Positions 1 through 36,271 of a stretch of DNA of 36,271 nucleotides are shown here, one piece after another. The notes beneath the pieces were generated by a model, which was not told the DNA's origin, made no database searches, and saw nothing but the letters and a program-made list of their open reading frames with translations. The stretch's first letter is position 1. Every line of letters begins with the position of its first letter. Both the position numbers and the translations under genes were made by a program. Origin of the DNA: a virus; IMG/VR virus record IMGVR_UViG_3300037502_000824, positions 1 through 36,271 of that record; one strand, written 5' to 3'.

Positions 1-127
1 GGGGTTTCCTTGTTCCATAGTGATCCGTAGTGTAGTTCATTGATTCTGGTGATGCAATGCACCCATTGGGTTTTTGATTTTTGAAAAAATTTTCACGGGT
101 TCTGTGATGCCGCCCCGCCAGTGACCC
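1..127. repeat. Terminal direct repeat (circular closure overlap), left copy
   Basis: Bases 1-127 are repeated exactly at 36145-36271. The shared piece contains the first six codons of the small terminase gene (minus strand, start codon at 16-18) and its upstream promoter. A length of exactly 127 equals a common large assembly k-mer, so the likeliest reading is an assembler overlap of a circular or circularly permuted molecule. P22-like phages package headfuls and give circular assemblies. A true short terminal repeat cannot be excluded from sequence alone. Confidence 0.93.
29..57 (-). promoter_or_regulatory. Putative late promoter of the terminase/structural operon (left copy)
   Basis: On the minus strand a -35-like TTGCAT (52-57) is followed after exactly 17 bp by a -10-like TACACT (29-34). 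The same site recurs at 36173-36201 in the right copy of the terminal repeat, where it lies just upstream of the small terminase start. TTGCAT also serves as the -35 in two other predicted promoters of this genome (6555-6582 and 30830-30858). The call rests on consensus match only. Confidence 0.5.
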
Positions 128-210
128 ACCCGCCTCCGGCCCTCCCCCGCCCCCGTCGAACCCAGCGCCGCCCGGGTACCACCCCAGCGTGGCCGCGGAT
201 CCCCGCGCCC

Positions 211-273
211 CAGCGGGTCCAGGGAATCGCTGACCCAGCGGGTCCAGGGAATCGCTGACCCAGCGGGTCCAGG
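211..273. repeat. 25-bp tandem repeat, about 2.5 copies
   Basis: The units begin CAGCGGGTCCAGGGAATCGC at 211 and 236 and are identical over 25 bp. A third copy starts at 261 and diverges after 13 bases. A related stretch, CCAGCGGGTCCAGGGAAT, recurs near 372-389. Each unit carries the core of the operator-like element that also lies inside the early promoter at 642-652, so the array may be a protein-binding array. Confidence 0.85.
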
Positions 274-534
274 TGATCCGCGGATCTGGCGCTGCTGATC
301 TGGCGAATGATCACCGGATCCAGGGGGTCCAGATTGTCCAGGGGAATCCTGACCCCCTGGGTTCATGCGGTCCAGCGGGTCCAGGGAATTCCCGGGAAAT
401 CCTGGGGGAAAACCTGACCCAGCGGGCAAAAAGGGGCCGCGGTGACAAAAGCGCCTTTCGCGCGCAGGAGGCGTTTAATAGAGTACTTTTCGATTTGCAC
501 AGATTTTAAGCAATCCCAGAAACCTACCCCCTGA

Positions 535-553
535 GACAAAAGGGCCATTTGTC
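535..553. repeat. Inverted repeat GACAAA/TTTGTC
   Basis: GACAAA at 535-540 pairs with TTTGTC at 548-553 across a 7-base centre. The left arm continues as GACAAAAGGGCC and has a near-identical direct copy, GACAAAAGCGCC, at 444-455; a looser copy (GGCAAAAAGGGGCC) starts at 425. This could be a second class of regulator or replication-protein site. No partner protein is identified. Confidence 0.5.
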
Positions 554-629
554 ACTAGCTTACACCCAGCTGACACCGTGAACCCAGCGGGTCAGGGAAA
601 ATACTGATGATCTTTTTTTGCTGCACCTA

Positions 630-658
630 TTGACAATAATCACCCGCTGGGTTATATT
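630..658 (+). promoter_or_regulatory. Early promoter with embedded operator-like element
   Basis: A perfect -35 TTGACA (630-635) is separated by 17 bp from a -10 TATATT (653-658). The spacer contains ACCCGCTGGGT (642-652), the reverse complement of the ACCCAGCGGGT element repeated upstream at 233, 258 and 582. A protein recognising the array could therefore also block or bend this promoter. It is the best sigma70-type promoter in the window and is placed to drive genes from 697 onward as host RNA polymerase meets entering DNA. Confidence 0.85.
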
Positions 659-2930: not shown

Positions 2931-3143
2931 ATGCCCCTGGATCTGATGAAATTACCCGCTGATGAAGCTGAGGCCCTGGCCTATTCCGAAGGGTTCACCG
3001 GGACCGCGTCACTGTTCGCCAGGATCGCGGACCTGCAGAAAGCCCTGGGGGAAGCCGTCGCCCAGATTGAACAGCTGGAAGCTGATCTCCGCGCTGCCCA
3101 GTTCGTGAACCGATATGAACGGGCATTCCCGCGGGGGGATTGA
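2931..3143 (+). CDS. Small coiled-coil hypothetical protein
   Basis: This 70-residue acidic protein has a C-terminal heptad-like helix (ADLQKALGEAVAQIEQLEADLRAAQ), probably a short coiled coil for dimerisation. It follows the previous gene after 4 nt, and its TGA overlaps the ATG of the 28-residue hydrophobic peptide. Function is unknown. Confidence 0.7.
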   Translation: MPLDLMKLPADEAEALAYSEGFTGTASLFARIADLQKALGEAVAQIEQLEADLRAAQFVNRYERAFPRGD

Positions 3144-3229
3144 TGCTGACCTTGTCTGTTTTTGTCTCGCTGATCTTCGCCGCTGTCCGCGCCCTGCTGC
3201 TGCTGATCGCGTCACTGATCAAACCCTGA
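3143..3229 (+). CDS. 28-residue hydrophobic peptide
   Basis: This frame starts at ATG 3143-3145, overlapping the stop of the upstream gene (TGATG), and ends just before the operon terminator. The peptide, starting MLTLSVFVSLIFAAVRALLL, is a single hydrophobic helix with one internal Arg and a C-terminal Lys-Pro. It would insert in the inner membrane. It resembles toxin-like or regulatory micropeptides only in general character. The start overlap, codon bias matching its neighbours and the immediately following terminator support it as a real gene. Confidence 0.6.
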   Translation: MLTLSVFVSLIFAAVRALLLLIASLIKP

Positions 3230-3236
3230 AACCCGC

Positions 3237-3265
3237 GCCCCAGGGGATCCCCTGGGGCCTTTTTT
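3237..3265 (+). terminator. Rho-independent terminator of the early operon
   Basis: A perfect 22-bp palindrome (3237-3258) with arms GCCCCAGGGGA and its complement is followed by C and six T residues (3260-3265). It ends the 697-3229 transcription unit. The HTH gene follows only 22 bp later with its own ribosome binding site, so it must be reached by readthrough or a separate weak promoter. Confidence 0.92.
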
Positions 3266-3286
3266 CGCCATTGAAAGGATGACATC

Positions 3287-3574
3287 ATGCCCGATGCAAA
3301 ACCCGCCCCGCTGCCCCTGTTCGCCCAGGATCTGGCCGCGCTGATCACGCGCCGCGGACTGGATGAAACCCGCGCCGCTGGCCTGCTGGGGGTCCCCGTG
3401 TTCACGCTCAGAAAATGGACCGCGGGGACCCGCGCCCCCAGCGCCGCGGCTGTCCGCCTGCTGGATGTCCTGGTGACCCTGGACACCCTGGCCCCCGCGC
3501 TGCTGGACGCGCTGACCCCGCCCGCCAGCGCCCCCAAGCGGCCCCGGGGGCGACCGAAGGCCAAGGCTGACTAA
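3287..3574 (+). CDS. HTH DNA-binding protein with AT-hook-like tail
   Basis: This 95-residue protein has a helix-turn-helix region of the XRE/phage-repressor type at about residues 12-55, including TRAAGLLGVPVFTLRKWTAG, where Trp and Gly match the end of the recognition helix in this class. It ends in a basic tail PKRPRGRPKAK with a Gly-Arg-Pro core at 88-90, the AT-hook signature. It sits right after the early terminator, so it may regulate the early promoter. The repeated ACCCAGCGGGT sites are candidate targets, but this link is inference. Confidence 0.78.
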   Translation: MPDAKPAPLPLFAQDLAALITRRGLDETRAAGLLGVPVFTLRKWTAGTRAPSAAAVRLLDVLVTLDTLAPALLDALTPPASAPKRPRGRPKAKAD

Positions 3575-3592
3575 GGCTCCCAACCAGCCAAC

Positions 3593-3652
3593 GGCCCCAA
3601 GTTTTAAGGCATCGAACCAACCGATGGCCCCAAGTTTTAAGGCATCGAACCA
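3593..3652. repeat. 33-bp tandem repeat, two copies
   Basis: The segment GGCCCCAAGTTTTAAGGCAT, continuing CGAACCA, occurs at 3593 and again at 3626, a period of 33 bp. It fills the gap between the HTH gene and the glutaredoxin gene. It marks the boundary between the compositionally distinct left island and the rest of the genome. It could be an operator pair or a recombination scar. Confidence 0.85.
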
Positions 3653-6531: not shown

Positions 6532-6554
6532 CGGAAATTTTTTTGTGGCATGGG

Positions 6555-6582
6555 TTGCATTGTGGCACAAGTGTGCTACACT
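6555..6582 (+). promoter_or_regulatory. Promoter of the replication operon
   Basis: TTGCAT (6555-6560) is followed after 16 bp by TACACT (6577-6582), preceded by TGC, giving an extended -10. It lies 31 bp before the ATG of the RHH protein at 6614. The inverted repeat AAGTGT-GCT-ACACTT (6569-6583) overlaps the -10, making it a likely operator. Confidence 0.65.
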
Positions 6583-6587
6583 TTCAA
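6559..6587 (-). promoter_or_regulatory. Putative primase promoter with shared inverted repeat
   Basis: On the minus strand TTGAAA (6582-6587) is followed after 17 bp by CACAAT (6559-6564). The spacer holds the inverted repeat AAGTGT-AGC-ACACTT, overlapping the divergent promoter at 6555-6582. The stretch TTGAAAGTGT-N3-ACACTTGT is found again at 14565-14585 in front of another gene. A weak -10 makes the promoter call less certain than the shared element. Confidence 0.5.
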
Positions 6588-6613
6588 CATCGACACAGAA
6601 ATTTTTCACCGTC

Positions 6614-6823
6614 ATGATCCCCATCAACAAATCTGCGTACCTGACTGTCCGAGTGGCAGACAAGACGCGCACCAAGTTTCACGCGAAGGCCAGAAAGTTC
6701 GGCACACCGAGCGAGGTCTTACGTGAACTCGTTGACGCTTTCATCGAAGATCGCGTCACCATCAACCCACCTGTAACCGGTAATCCCAAGGAGAAACTTT
6801 ATGAGCCTCGAATCCAAAATTGA
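6614..6823 (+). CDS. Ribbon-helix-helix DNA-binding protein
   Basis: This 69-residue protein has the Arc/MetJ-like pattern of a beta strand (AYLTVRV), a helix (KTRTKFHAKARKFG) and a second helix beginning TPSEVLRELVDAFIE. RHH proteins dimerise and bind inverted or tandem operators through the strand. It is the first gene behind a promoter containing AAGTGT-N3-ACACTT, a good candidate autoregulatory site. The start chosen is the ATG at 6614 that begins the RHH strand region; the longer frame upstream has no family support. It overlaps the next gene by 23 nt. Confidence 0.78.
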   Translation: MIPINKSAYLTVRVADKTRTKFHAKARKFGTPSEVLRELVDAFIEDRVTINPPVTGNPKEKLYEPRIQN

Positions 6824-14821: not shown

Positions 14822-14934
14822 CCACATGGCCCTTCCCTCCCCCGGGCGGGCCTGTGCCGTGGACCGCACAGCAGGAACGCGACTACCAGCGCCAGCAGCG
14901 TGAACAGCTACCGGAGGCACCGTGGGTACACTGA
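14818..14934 (+). CDS. 38-residue Pro/Gln-rich peptide
   Basis: This frame starts with the ATG overlapping the preceding stop (ATGA) and ends inside the start region of the next gene. The peptide has a Pro-rich N-terminus (TTWPFPPPGGPVPW) and a Gln/Arg-rich helix (QQERDYQRQQREQ). Coupled position on both sides supports translation. Function is unknown. Confidence 0.6.
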   Translation: MTTWPFPPPGGPVPWTAQQERDYQRQQREQLPEAPWVH

Positions 14935-15290
14935 ACCGAGGACGCCGGGTCATTGACACCACTGCGGCCATTGTCGAGTTTGGCGAGATCACTGCGATGG
15001 AGTTGGCCGAGTATTTGGGGATCACCCGATATGACGCCCACGCCGTCCTGCGGCGCATGAGCAAGCGCACCAAGGCCGGGGTCAAGCGCATCCATGTCGT
15101 GCGGTACATCGACGACCATGACGGTGCCCGCAAGTACCCCCGGGCCGTCTATGCGATGGGTGACAAACCTGACGCCAAAAAGCCCAAGGCTGACCAACTC
15201 AGGGTCAAGCGGGAATACTATGCGCGGGTCAAGTCTCGCACGACCATGAACAGCGTGTTCAATCTTGGGATTCAGTGGAGAGCAGCATGA
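14922..15290 (+). CDS. Winged-helix DNA-binding protein
   Basis: This 122-residue protein starts at a GTG within the preceding gene. Residues about 13-60 form a winged HTH (AAIVEFGEITAMELAEYLG followed by TRYDAHAVLRRM), then a basic wing (KRIHVVRYIDDHDGARKYPRAVYAMGD) and a basic C-terminus. This arrangement is common in phage regulators whose role is not established. It could time middle-to-late transcription; that is inference. Confidence 0.72.
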   Translation: MGTLNRGRRVIDTTAAIVEFGEITAMELAEYLGITRYDAHAVLRRMSKRTKAGVKRIHVVRYIDDHDGARKYPRAVYAMGDKPDAKKPKADQLRVKREYYARVKSRTTMNSVFNLGIQWRAA

Positions 15291-31126: not shown

Positions 31127-31489
31127 TTATGCGAGGAATTTGAGTTTGTACAGGGTGGACAGATAAACCGCGACGATCTCGTCGATGATGTTCTGAAGCG
31201 GGGTGTCGGTTTTTTCACAGACCTCGTACCGCATCTTTTCGACTTCCTTGAGGGAGTCTTCCAAAAACTCAGTGATGTTCGCGGTCTTGCGGGCGTTGCG
31301 CAGCGTGATGGGGCCGATCAACCCGTGACGGCCTTGGTAGGCTTCGGCAAACTTGTCGGCCGCTTCGATCACGTCTTCATAGAAATGACGCAGGGCTTTG
31401 TGCTTGGAGTAGCTGCGGGTGTTCAGGTGGACGGAATGCGCGACATCCCGAGCCAAGAACAACTCGCCCACGAAATCAGCGCATTTCAT
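31127..31489 (-). CDS. DUF5856-like four-helix protein
   Basis: This 120-residue helical protein contains VHLNTRSYSKHKALRHFYED, then EAADKFAEAYQGRHGLIGP, matching a widespread phage family (DUF5856) with a ferritin/Dps-like four-helix look. The role is not known; metal-binding His and Glu are plausible but unproven. It starts within the last 14 nt of the portal gene. Confidence 0.78.
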   Translation of the reverse strand: MKCADFVGELFLARDVAHSVHLNTRSYSKHKALRHFYEDVIEAADKFAEAYQGRHGLIGPITLRNARKTANITEFLEDSLKEVEKMRYEVCEKTDTPLQNIIDEIVAVYLSTLYKLKFLA

Positions 31490-33650
31490 TCATCTCTCCT
31501 TGTTCAGGCATCTCGGCAGGTAATTCCATCATTGGTTGTGAACCAGTGACCAGATCACCGGTGTCGATGGCAGCAGCGATTGTGCCCATCACGATGTCTT
31601 GAATTTGCTCGGGTGTCATGCCAGCCTGCACCGCAGCGATTCGCTTGGTCTCGGCGTCGTATGCCTTGATCTGGTTGGCCTGCTCTTTGATCTCCAAGTC
31701 GCGGGCTTCCATGCTCTGCTGGACGTTTTGCAGCATGGCCTGCATGGCCTGCATCTGCTGGGCCATCTGTTCCATCTGCTGATTCGCAGCCACCAGAGCC
31801 GGATTGTCCTCGTCGGCCAGCACCTTGGGGTCCAGAGTCTTCTGAAACCGCTTTGCAAGGTCTTGGGCACCGGGCCAGTCCATGTTCTTGACGAACAGGT
31901 CACCGGCCACGCTCCACAGTTGCGGGTTGCCCTGCAACAGTTGGGCCATCGACTCCAAGGCTTCCTGACGCTTAGTGGCGTAGCCGGGGCCGGTGATGAC
32001 ACGCACGTCGTACTTGCCGACTGCCGGGTTGTAGATTTTGTCGATCACAACGCCTTCAGGATTGACGATTTTTTTGACCGGCTCCTGCTGCATCGGGTTC
32101 ATCTTGACGGTCGATGGTTCGCCGTCTTCACCAATGATGCGGGCGATCCGCTCGGTGTCGTAAATCTTGGGGATCAAATCCACCAGTTGACGACCAACAT
32201 GGCGAATAGCGCGGGCCAGATTATCCACATAGTGATAGGTTCCTACGTCGCCCTCACGCTGACGCGCAAGGATGGCTTTACCAGAACGCTCATTGCTGGT
32301 CATGCCCAGCGAAGCGTTGTACTGACCGGTGGCCGACTTGATATCTTCCGATGCACCCGCCTTGGCTTGCAGGAGGCCGCTGGAGGCCATCGGAGGCTGT
32401 GCCCGCTGGGGTAGGGGCAGGATGTTTCCCTGACCGTCTGTAACGTCCGGATTGACCTCCAGATACGGCCAGTTCTGGGTGTTGGCGGTCTTCCACTGGG
32501 TTTCGTAACCCTCAAACTGACCGCCGTAGCCAATGAACGGGGCTTTGGGGGCCAGCGCCAACATCTCGGCTTCCTGCGACACCCAGTAGTTGTACATGCG
32601 CTGGGCGTCTTTGGCGTTGCGCACCAGACCGCTCACGTACAGACGACCATCGACCTCGAACTCGTTGCCGATCACGCGCACCACGGGGATGTACTGACCA
32701 GCCCAGTCGCGTTCTTCAAGAATCTCGTAGCCGTTGATCTTGCACCACTTGACGCGCTTGCGATCCGACTGGCGAGAGCGCAGGGGCTTGCCAAACATCA
32801 TGCGCAGCGACTTGTCTTCGGGGGTGCCGTCAAACGCAGTCACGTTGCCGGGGTACAGGTTCAGCGTGGCCTTGTCGTGCTCGATGTAGAAGTACTCAGC
32901 GATGCGGACTGTGTTCTCGTTGAGCCAGTTGCTGATGGACTGATCGCCCACACCCAACGACATCAGGGTCGAGATGGGGGCGGCGTCCGGGTACATGCGC
33001 TCGTACTCGGCTTTGGTCAGGTCTTCCGTGATGAAACACCAGCGGGCGTCTGCACCGGTGGGGTCTTGAATCAGCGGGTCCATGTAGACCGAGAAGCTGT
33101 TGCGCACTCGGCCGATCTTGATGTCCTGATCGAATGTGCTTTCGTCGCAGTACTCGGTCAGCAGACGGATGTAGCCTTCGCCGTAGGAAACTTGGTTTTC
33201 GCAGGCAGTGTCGTAGGCCACATCGGCATCGGAGATGTACTCAATGTGACGGATCACGCCGTTGTAGACCTCGGCCACCTCAACGTCGCCCTTGTCGTCG
33301 GCCGGGATCACCTTGATGCCGGGGCGGTTCATCCGCTGTTCGTTGGTGATCTGCTTGACGTGCTGGGGTAGCTTGTTGATGGTCAGCGTGGGTCGGGCGT
33401 TGATGGTCTGACCTTGGACCGCGCCACGGGTCTGGAGCACGTCAGCGGGCCACTGCCACTGGTTGTCCGGGGAACCTGCATAGAACCGCAGGTCATCGAG
33501 TTCGCTTTCGCGGGTCTCGGACATGGCCGAAATCGCCATCGTCATGCGAGACCGGGCGACGGTCAGGATGTCCTCGGAACCGCCTTTTGACGGGTACGGG
33601 CCGTTCTTTGCCACATTCGCTGCGGCCACGATTCCGATGTTGTCTTTCAT
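31476..33650 (-). CDS. Portal protein, P22 gp1-like
   Basis: This 724-residue protein almost equals P22 gp1 in length (725). Recognisable segments are SELDDLRFYAGSPDNQWQWP, QHVKQITNEQRMNRPGIKV, and the AYDTACENQVSYGEGYIRL block. The last 120 residues are Gln/Met-rich helix (QMAQQMQAMQAMLQNVQQSM), corresponding to the barrel region of P22-type portals. It forms the dodecameric DNA gate at one capsid vertex. Its ATG overlaps the GroES-like stop. Confidence 0.93.
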   Translation of the reverse strand: MKDNIGIVAAANVAKNGPYPSKGGSEDILTVARSRMTMAISAMSETRESELDDLRFYAGSPDNQWQWPADVLQTRGAVQGQTINARPTLTINKLPQHVKQITNEQRMNRPGIKVIPADDKGDVEVAEVYNGVIRHIEYISDADVAYDTACENQVSYGEGYIRLLTEYCDESTFDQDIKIGRVRNSFSVYMDPLIQDPTGADARWCFITEDLTKAEYERMYPDAAPISTLMSLGVGDQSISNWLNENTVRIAEYFYIEHDKATLNLYPGNVTAFDGTPEDKSLRMMFGKPLRSRQSDRKRVKWCKINGYEILEERDWAGQYIPVVRVIGNEFEVDGRLYVSGLVRNAKDAQRMYNYWVSQEAEMLALAPKAPFIGYGGQFEGYETQWKTANTQNWPYLEVNPDVTDGQGNILPLPQRAQPPMASSGLLQAKAGASEDIKSATGQYNASLGMTSNERSGKAILARQREGDVGTYHYVDNLARAIRHVGRQLVDLIPKIYDTERIARIIGEDGEPSTVKMNPMQQEPVKKIVNPEGVVIDKIYNPAVGKYDVRVITGPGYATKRQEALESMAQLLQGNPQLWSVAGDLFVKNMDWPGAQDLAKRFQKTLDPKVLADEDNPALVAANQQMEQMAQQMQAMQAMLQNVQQSMEARDLEIKEQANQIKAYDAETKRIAAVQAGMTPEQIQDIVMGTIAAAIDTGDLVTGSQPMMELPAEMPEQGEMNEMR

Positions 33651-34057: not shown

Positions 34058-35599
34058 TCAAGACCCCATCCAAGATGTTAAAACGGCCCCGTTTTGGGCA
34101 TTGCGCCGGGGCACTACGCGATCATTGTACTCCCGATGTGCAACAGGAAATGCGAAAGTCACGGCGATGGCGTCAGCGGCATCCGGTGAGGCCAGACCAC
34201 GGGCTTTCATTTCCTTCTTGCCTTCCAAGAATATGGTGCCCGCAGAGTTGGGCTTCTTCATCGGCCCGACGAGATCGGCCTTCAAAAGCCTGTCCTGCGG
34301 CAAACTGGCCGACTTGAGCCAATCGCGCATGGCTCCCCAAATCTCGGCCCTCTTGTTGCCCCACATCACGGGGTTCTTGGCCTTCCAGCCAAAGTTGACC
34401 CCGCGCACTTTGTACTTCTGCTCGGTCAGTCTGTCAAGGATGCCATACCCGAGGCCACCCTCGTCGATCACCGTGAGTGCTGGCCGGTACTCTTCGATGG
34501 CGTCGATGACGTGACCCACGGTGGTCATGGTGTCGTCACCTCGGAACCGCTTGATCGCCACAATGTCACGCCCTTGGCGCACGGCGATCACGGTGCTGTC
34601 CATGCCGCCCCGGGCCGGGTCCACGCCGATCACGATGGGTGCGGTCATGTCCTTGTACTTGGGGCGCTTCATGGCGTCATCGACAAGATGCGGCGCGATG
34701 AACTGGTCTTGGCCGGACTTGGGGAAATCCCCATAGACCTCGACCCGGGCCTCGTCGGAGTCCTCGCCGTACTCCTCGATGATCTGCTGGTAGATGGTCT
34801 TGTCGGTGCCCTCGACTGTGCGGGCGTCGATCTTCTCGGACTCCCAGAAATCCCGCTTGTTACCGTCCACGGCCTCGTAGAAGTACCCGGTGTTGCGACG
34901 GCCGTTGGAGAACGCGAACCAATACCGGTCAAGAATGTTCTCCGTAAAGAAGCCCGCCGCCACGGACCAGATGCTGTCCGGGATACCGCTGGCTTCGTCG
35001 AAGATCACCATCATGCCGTCCATGTTGTGAACACCGGCGTAGGCGTCTGGGTTCTCCTCGCTCCACAGTTTACCCTCGGCACCCCAGTACCGGGTGCCCT
35101 TCTTGAGGTCCCGCTCGACCAACTCGGTCAGCCATGCGGCCGGGTTTAGGCTTGTGGCCGTCGGCTCCCACCAGTGGGCGTTGATCGCCATCGTGACCCA
35201 CTTGGTGAGTTCACCCCACGTCACTTTACGCAACTGGTTCTCGCTGTTGGCCGACACGATGACAGACGACCCGATCCGGGTGGTCAGCATCCACAGGATT
35301 AACCACGACACGAGTGCGGACTTACCGACACCCCGGCCGGACGAAACAGCCCTGCGCAGCGCATCAATCAGATCACCCTCGGTCAGCTTGCCCCGGTTCT
35401 CTTTGATGAAGTCCCGTATCCGACGCAGCGTCCTGCGCTGCCACGCTCGGGGTGCCTTGAAGTGCTCGAGGGGTGTGTTCTTCTGCCCCCACGGGAACGC
35501 GAACAGCACGAACGCCTCGGGATCGTCCTTGATCGCGGGACTCCACAACTGCGACATCAGCAGTTGCTCCTCCTCTGGCGAGTAGCGCATCTTCTGCAT
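34058..35599 (-). CDS. Terminase large subunit
   Basis: This 513-residue protein has the packaging ATPase P-loop SGRGVGKS (87-94), Walker B VIFDEAS (D201, E202), a possible coupling segment SNGRRNTGYF, and the C-terminal RNase H-like nuclease with D327 in GVDPARGGMD, D379 in TVIDEGG and a late Asp in SPDAADA. It cuts and pumps DNA into the prohead with TerS. It starts at an ATG overlapping the TerS stop (TGATG), with GGAG upstream. Confidence 0.94.
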   Translation of the reverse strand: MQKMRYSPEEEQLLMSQLWSPAIKDDPEAFVLFAFPWGQKNTPLEHFKAPRAWQRRTLRRIRDFIKENRGKLTEGDLIDALRRAVSSGRGVGKSALVSWLILWMLTTRIGSSVIVSANSENQLRKVTWGELTKWVTMAINAHWWEPTATSLNPAAWLTELVERDLKKGTRYWGAEGKLWSEENPDAYAGVHNMDGMMVIFDEASGIPDSIWSVAAGFFTENILDRYWFAFSNGRRNTGYFYEAVDGNKRDFWESEKIDARTVEGTDKTIYQQIIEEYGEDSDEARVEVYGDFPKSGQDQFIAPHLVDDAMKRPKYKDMTAPIVIGVDPARGGMDSTVIAVRQGRDIVAIKRFRGDDTMTTVGHVIDAIEEYRPALTVIDEGGLGYGILDRLTEQKYKVRGVNFGWKAKNPVMWGNKRAEIWGAMRDWLKSASLPQDRLLKADLVGPMKKPNSAGTIFLEGKKEMKARGLASPDAADAIAVTFAFPVAHREYNDRVVPRRNAQNGAVLTSWMGS

Positions 35600-36162
35600 C
35601 AGTCATTCTCCAATCTCGGGGTCACATCGACCACATCGGCTTCAATCACCCGGGCCTGAGCCTGCGCCAGCGCCTCAGTGATCGAGATCGTCCCGCCCAC
35701 CTCAATCTGCTTGGTTTCCCCGTACCGCTTCCGGTTATGCGCCGACATGAGCCACTTGCGCGTGTCGATGCGCAGCTTGTCGCGGTTGACGGTATCACTC
35801 GATGACGGGTCAATCGCTTCGACCCCATCGGCAATCTCAAGAATCTCCCCGGCAAGGAACTCGGTGCGCATCTCCTGCGCTTCCTTGAATCGCTCGTGGC
35901 GTTGGGGGTCGCGCTTGACCCAGCGCAGGAAGTCCTCATACGAGATGATGCGCGGGTCGTCTTCGATCAGGGATTGCAGGGAGCGGCCCCGATAGATGTC
36001 CTCGATGACACGCTCGAAGATTTGCTCATATTCGAGGTGCAGCAGTTCTCTCGCGGCCTTGGTGGGCCGTGGGGGCTTGGGGTCTGGGCACGACAGCCAG
36101 TTTGGGAGTGGGGTTTCACCGGTGACAACCGTGCCTACGAACTGGGGGTTTCCTTGTTCCAT
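35599..36162 (-). CDS. Terminase small subunit, Sf6-like
   Basis: This 187-residue protein has an N-terminal Pro-rich tail, an HTH-like segment (GRSLQSLIEDDPRIISYEDF followed by LRWVKRDPQRHERFKEAQE), a helical oligomerisation part (LAGEILEIADGVE) and the family signature DKLRIDTRKWLMSAHNRKRYG. It recognises phage DNA for headful packaging. The ATG at 36160-36162 lies only a few bases below the predicted promoter -10, so the mRNA may be nearly leaderless. The first codons are repeated at 1-18 through circularity. Confidence 0.88.
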   Translation of the reverse strand: MEQGNPQFVGTVVTGETPLPNWLSCPDPKPPRPTKAARELLHLEYEQIFERVIEDIYRGRSLQSLIEDDPRIISYEDFLRWVKRDPQRHERFKEAQEMRTEFLAGEILEIADGVEAIDPSSSDTVNRDKLRIDTRKWLMSAHNRKRYGETKQIEVGGTISITEALAQAQARVIEADVVDVTPRLEND

Positions 36163-36271
36163 AGTGATCCGTAGTGTAGTTCATTGATTCTGGTGATGCA
36201 ATGCACCCATTGGGTTTTTGATTTTTGAAAAAATTTTCACGGGTTCTGTGATGCCGCCCCGCCAGTGACCC
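36145..36271. repeat. Terminal direct repeat (circular closure overlap), right copy
   Basis: This is the second exact copy of bases 1-127. Joining the copies gives a 36,144-bp circle in which the small terminase gene is intact and the control region at about 19-696 lies directly upstream of it. Confidence 0.93.
36173..36201 (-). promoter_or_regulatory. Putative late promoter of the terminase/structural operon
   Basis: On the minus strand TTGCAT (36196-36201) and TACACT (36173-36178) are 17 bp apart. The expected transcription start, 6-7 bp past the -10, is within about 5 bp of the TerS ATG. This is the right-hand copy of the site at 29-57. Confidence 0.5.

Follow-up and report, generated by a model that had tools for sequence, protein, structure and literature searches.

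The lambda repressor CI represses one promoter and activates a divergent one from the same region (lambda OR), and the stoperators of mycobacteriophages L5 and Bxb1 are many copies of one phage operator spread over the genome; both the L5/Bxb1 stoperators and lambda OR serve lysogeny. In phage phi29, protein p4 switches the early promoters A2b/A2c and the late promoter A3 (PMC3100819), while the Escherichia coli antitoxin and repressor MqsA recognises the operator AACCT-N3-AGGTT (PMC4894380). The family 'Luchaoviridae' was proposed for Phage DSL-LC05 (PMC10611076); the words repressor, promoter and intergenic are absent from the text of that paper, and therefore the operator array analyzed here is not described there.

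The window is the whole stretch of DNA that was analyzed (36,271 nucleotides), and its first and last 127 bases are identical and form a direct end repeat. The contig is therefore a circle of 36,144 bp, and the intergenic region under study runs on past position 1. The source phage is a freshwater phage encoding P22-like portal, coat and stabilisation proteins, together with a DNA polymerase, a DNA helicase and a primase/polymerase, and is probably a lytic P22-like podovirus. Its kin is Phage DSL-LC05 (OR003940), with 83.8% DNA identity over 54% of 20 kb, 89.9% TerL identity and a shared gene order; judged by core-gene identity and gene order, the window phage is a member of the proposed 'Luchaoviridae'. 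No integrase is annotated in DSL-LC05, and a host and prophage search for TerS relatives in bacterial species genomes and plasmids found nothing close. Thus, neither the DSL-LC05 annotation nor the TerS search of bacterial species genomes revealed lysogeny genes or prophage relatives, and the absence of TerS relatives from bacterial species genomes is compatible with a lytic life style, although it is no proof of it. The relatives compared below were gathered by TerS, polymerase and HTH searches; they are a non-random set of non-independent samples in which some contigs are present more than once, and counts are based on non-identical sequences where so stated.

Positions 19-696 form a divergent intergenic region, flanked on one side by the small terminase gene on the minus strand and on the other by the early operon (plus strand, from 697). 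The sequence upstream of TerS continues at 1-71 through the end repeat. The features of this region are as follows:

35599-36162, minus strand: small terminase subunit gene (TerS), first gene of the late operon, with its ATG at 18 (equal to 36162)
29-57, minus strand: predicted TerS late promoter, -35 TTGCAT (57-52), 17-bp spacer, -10 TACACT (34-29)
61-71, unstranded: terminase-side operator ACCCATTGGGT, exact ACCC-N3-GGGT, with a second copy at 36205-36215 in the end repeat
208-427, unstranded: operator array, from the motif search
208-218 and 417-427, unstranded: array copies with one mismatch
209-273, plus strand: 25-bp tandem repeat carrying three operator copies
233-243 and 258-268, unstranded: exact array copies with an AGC centre
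318-328 and 370-380, unstranded: degenerate array copies
352-362, unstranded: exact array copy ACCCCCTGGGT
about 440-555, unstranded: conserved block lacking operators, whose inverted repeat has its arms at 442-458 and 539-555; candidate origin
582-592, unstranded: companion operator, exact, 60 bp upstream of the promoter-embedded copy at 642-652
630-658, plus strand: early promoter TTGACA-17-TATATT, with no better sigma-70-like site within the first 1.5 kb
642-652, unstranded: embedded operator between the -35 and -10 of the early promoter

The original prediction, made from the letters of the window, had listed exact copies of ACCCAGCGGGT at 233, 258 and 582, near-exact copies upstream, an inverse copy at 642-652 and 25-bp tandem repeats carrying some of the copies. 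All of these were recovered: the near-exact copies have one mismatch at 208 and 417 and two at 370, the tandem repeat spans 209-273 (2.6 copies, 100% matches), and the inverse orientation at 642-652 concerns only the 3-bp centre. The real unit is the palindrome ACCC-N3-GGGT, three being the enriched spacer length. The circle contains seven exact sites, six of them within the intergenic region between TerS and the early operon, and two of these, at 61-71 and 352-362, were absent from the original prediction; the array is thus wider than first described. With up to two mismatches allowed, the window contains 39 motif occurrences versus 13.9 +/- 3.8 in shuffled sequence, a density never reached in 100 shuffles. 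No helical periodicity was detected among the sites inside the array.

The sites are also kept in relatives, so that neither of the two outcomes named in the original prediction as refuting it, a density equal to that of shuffled sequence or a lack of conservation in relatives, was observed. The intergenic regions of 50 non-identical relatives contain 322 exact sites versus 1.9 expected from shuffles, and 354 sites together give the consensus ACCCA-N-TGGGT; 86% of them have A at -1 and T at +1. Among complete relatives, those with the motif show between four and 11 exact sites each, versus none to two for a reversed control pattern, and one relative (G018/L212) shows one exact site plus near-exact ones, the embedded copy among them. 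In this relative (L212:2500-3850), an inserted ORF at about 3134-3650 parts the array from the early promoter, with the embedded operator intact. DSL-LC05 has its sites in unchanged places, with AGT or CGT rather than AGC at the centre, and the spacing of the array sites varies freely among relatives. Seven contigs (L204, L205, L211-L213, L216 and L234) were considered as exceptions that carry the HTH protein but few sites, and were rejected as such: inserted DNA separates their sites, which are either four scattered exact ones or near-exact ones that include the embedded copy. Contigs L188, L200, L214, L224 and L233 have too little upstream sequence and were left out of this judgement. Some more distant relatives show an array of the unrelated palindrome GTTTAYGTAAAC instead of ACCC-N3-GGGT; in L166:28219-28590 and L257:6942-7400 it is present in six to nine copies in the same intergenic place, and L166 also encodes a DnaA-like HTH protein at 31423-31719.

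The early promoter consists of TTGACA (630-635) and TATATT (653-658), and the embedded operator lies within its 17-bp spacer, precisely between the two hexamers as had been predicted. The same arrangement was found in 70 non-identical promoters of relatives, in which TTGACA is followed after 4-7 bp by the operator and then generally by a -10-like hexamer. The companion operator is mostly located 58-60 bp upstream of the embedded one in relatives. How far the embedded site lies from the last array site follows a weaker preference of 11 bp (R 0.67), and no periodicity was found between the embedded and the terminase-side sites. A dimer occupying the promoter spacer would have to compete with RNA polymerase, which suits repression, the standard reading of such a site. 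Several early genes are preceded by a repeated leader, GTAACCCGTAACC(CTGAAAGGA), at 668-696, 917-945 and 1080-1108; it is also present in DSL-LC05 and is taken to be a copied ribosome-binding cassette.

On the terminase side, the predicted start of transcription lies 3-4 nt before the ATG at 18, and the same short distance is predicted in all 79 relatives (CACTATG; window 18-34), so that the terminase mRNA would be almost leaderless. A TAnnnT hexamer ends 9-10 nt before the TerS ATG in 79 of 79 relatives, and an extended TG is present in 46 of these promoters. The -35 is poor, with a mean score of 3.9 out of six across the 79 promoters (2.8 in shuffled sequence). The consensus TTGACA is found in five of them, and by sequence not all would therefore need an activator. 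Relative to the predicted start, the centre of the proximal operator falls at -44 to -46, -54 to -56 or -64 to -66 in all 79 promoters, a phasing with R = 0.91 near 10.25 bp. Left out of this set are three promoters with 84, 95 and 96 nt between site end and ATG, where a second, near-exact copy lies nearer the gene, and eight promoters with 172 nt or longer, in which the exact proximal site is lost or insertions are present. On a tree of TerS DNA, the three spacing classes changed at least 32 times and cluster no more than shuffled labels; closely related phages thus differ in this spacing by full turns of the helix. Exchange of promoter cassettes by recombination may have a part in these changes, and the counts are not strictly independent; spacings between the classes, however, are absent.

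Whole-turn phasing suggests a face-specific contact with RNA polymerase, or looping, and the terminase-side phasing would also fit repression by either route. The main rival to activation at this promoter is an array of pure repression, in which the HTH protein described below would block the early promoter directly and the terminase promoter through contact with the polymerase or through DNA looping, late expression then needing another factor or relief from repression. The embedded site suits repression, and looping needs phasing too; between the last array site and the embedded site there is the weaker 11-bp preference. However, the terminase-side site lies upstream of the -35 and not over the core promoter, which together with the weak -35 is how activated promoters are usually built, and periodicity is absent inside the array as well as from the terminase site to the embedded one. 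Repression of both divergent promoters is therefore considered the less probable reading, though a serious one.

The candidate for the binder, and the element in front of its gene, are located downstream of the early promoter:

3237-3265, plus strand: terminator-like hairpin with a T-run, directly before the HTH gene
3287-3574, plus strand: 95-aa MqsA/HigA-like HTH protein, proposed operator-binding switch protein

The HTH protein is present in all 27 complete relatives with the motif (in one of them, G004, as a fragment only, at the contig end) and in none of the three without it. In Rhodoferax phage P26218, MW202898 and MW202483, motif and HTH protein are both lacking, and the latter is also absent from the entire set of relatives with the GTTTAYGTAAAC array. 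For 41 embedded-site promoters, 4.5 kb or more of sequence is available, and in every case the HTH gene lies downstream on the promoter's strand. The protein's recognition region, GVPVxTxRKW, hardly varies among relatives, and neither do the operator arms. Co-variation between motif centre and recognition helix was considered and set aside, because the arms are constant wherever the HTH protein exists and there is nothing to correlate.

An AlphaFold model of the protein (pLDDT 89.9) shows a five-helix HTH of the XRE/MqsA/HigA type. Among solved structures, MqsA is its closest match by profile, a weak one (E 0.013), and the best folds for the model include HigA2 (Z 9.3) and MqsA (3gn5; Z 7.9), middling Z scores being common for HTH folds. 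A Phmmer search of the single HTH sequence against the PDB gave chance matches only. In the profile alignment, Arg101 of MqsA, a DNA-contacting residue, falls on the invariant Lys43 of the phage protein. The original prediction had named this protein and an RHH protein as candidates for binding; for the HTH protein, the co-occurrence with the motif and an operator geometry like that of MqsA support the proposal, and it is likely the operator binder. The hairpin before its gene is present in 82 of 100 loci of relatives versus 21 of 300 random windows, and read-through past 3237-3265 could delay production of the switch protein. Just after the HTH gene, at 3572-3652, there is a 33-bp tandem repeat (AAGGCATCGAACCAACC...CCCCAAGTTTT), and a similar repeat occupies the same place in DSL-LC05.

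The same operator, ACCCANTGGGT, might instead be bound by another protein, either the RHH protein (6614-6823) or a host regulator. The RHH protein co-occurs with the motif as well as the HTH protein does (27 of 27 complete relatives), and a host regulator is compatible with the phage sequence alone. However, the promoter spacer of the RHH gene contains a different palindrome, of the GTATCAC-N4-GTGATAC type, and on this ground the RHH protein was rejected and probably binds a different operator. In addition, the more distant relatives with the GTTTAYGTAAAC array are without the HTH protein, as one would expect of a motif that moves together with its phage regulator, and the geometry of the operator matches that of MqsA; a different binder is accordingly judged improbable. 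The RHH gene (plus strand) and the prim-pol gene (minus strand) flank a second divergent region at 6540-6614, whose conserved palindrome is a second operator of the same inside-spacer design, probably serving autoregulation by the RHH protein. A winged-helix protein (14922-15290) was also rejected as binder, being present in only eight of the 27 relatives with the motif.

The original prediction had left the choice between a repressor/activator array and an origin whose initiator also controls early transcription. The first part is well supported by the operator in 70 early promoters and by the phased TerS promoter, while an origin, which gained no clear support, may still lie in the same region. 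As an iteron origin, the repeats would be initiator sites, the initiator would also repress the early promoter, and the block at 440-555, whose long inverted repeat is GTGACAAAAGCGCCTTT / AAAGGGCCATTTGTCAC, would be the unwinding region. The repeats do adjoin this conserved block, in the single large intergenic region. Yet an origin has no need of sites inside the early promoter or in phase with the late one, and, unlike in typical iterons, the array spacing is free to vary: the window has three copies in a 25-bp register, whereas relatives show irregular spacing. The repeats are thus doubtful candidates for iterons, although an origin in 440-555 may coexist with a switch. No RNA family match was found within 1-1000.

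We consider an early-off/late-on switch like that of phi29 p4, run by one phage-encoded HTH protein, the best reading, and somewhat favour it overall. The sites, the promoter geometry, their conservation, the helical phasing and the co-occurrence with the HTH protein are observed in these genomes, and from them we infer binding, repression, activation and a terminator acting as timer, in the following order. Host RNA polymerase would start early transcription at the strong promoter (630-658), and the early operon would pass the leaky terminator (3237-3265) into the HTH gene (3287-3574), so that the HTH protein would accumulate with delay. As a dimer, it would bind ACCCA-N-TGGGT. At 642-652, between the -35 and -10, it would shut the early promoter and thereby its own synthesis; at 61-71, on a fixed helix face upstream of the terminase promoter with its weak -35, it would aid the start by the polymerase. 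The late genes would thus come on as the early genes go off, and the array (208-427) and the companion site (582-592) would raise the local concentration or help to form a higher-order complex.

A broader proposal, which we hold to be evenly balanced, is that an MqsA-like HTH protein lacking both a zinc domain and a toxin partner is the master switch, early-off and late-on, of a widespread environmental phage family, in which the distance between activator site and late promoter has been repeatedly re-set by whole turns. If true, these phages would be a natural experiment on face-of-helix activation, their 79 natural promoters with whole-turn jumps offering a large data set of a rare kind on regulator position with respect to RNA polymerase, and a toxin-antitoxin-type HTH would be seen to serve as a lytic-phase switch. 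With a single 11-bp operator, a small protein and two promoters, the proposed circuit lends itself to direct testing, and it bears on how uncultured lytic phages time their early and late genes.

Like the L5/Bxb1 stoperators and lambda OR, the locus has many copies of one phage operator; however, the sites are confined to one region, and neither lysogeny genes nor prophage relatives were found. DSL-LC05 has the same genome layout, operators in the same places, differing in their AGT or CGT centres, and a homologue of the HTH protein annotated as 'repressor protein C'. The C-terminal HTH of MqsA is the closest solved relative by profile, and in its operator ACC/GGT stand as far from the dyad as in the phage consensus. 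The phage operator differs in its innermost arm base, which is C (C/G) and not T, and in its mixed outer base, and the exact MqsA operator is not found at the phage sites. The 95-aa protein contains no cysteine and hence no zinc-binding CxxC domain, and the gene downstream encodes a glutaredoxin, not a toxin. With 13.6 bits against a cut-off of 61.8, it scores far below the NCBIfam MqsA model (TIGR03830), and given this score and the missing zinc domain it was not assigned to that family. The likeness to phi29 p4 lies in the organization: one early phage protein, as proposed here, several sites between divergent early and late promoters, a site overlapping the early promoter core, a late promoter with a poor -35, here with an upstream site on a fixed helical face, and A-tracts beside the activator site. 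Membership of the p4 protein family was rejected, because fold and operator differ: the fold of p4 is unique, its operator, CTTTTT-15-AAAATG, is long (PMC3100819), and it acts with p6 in a DNA hairpin, whereas here no p6-like partner was identified, the protein is an XRE/MqsA-type HTH, the operator is an 11-bp palindrome, and the late-promoter spacing varies by whole helical turns.
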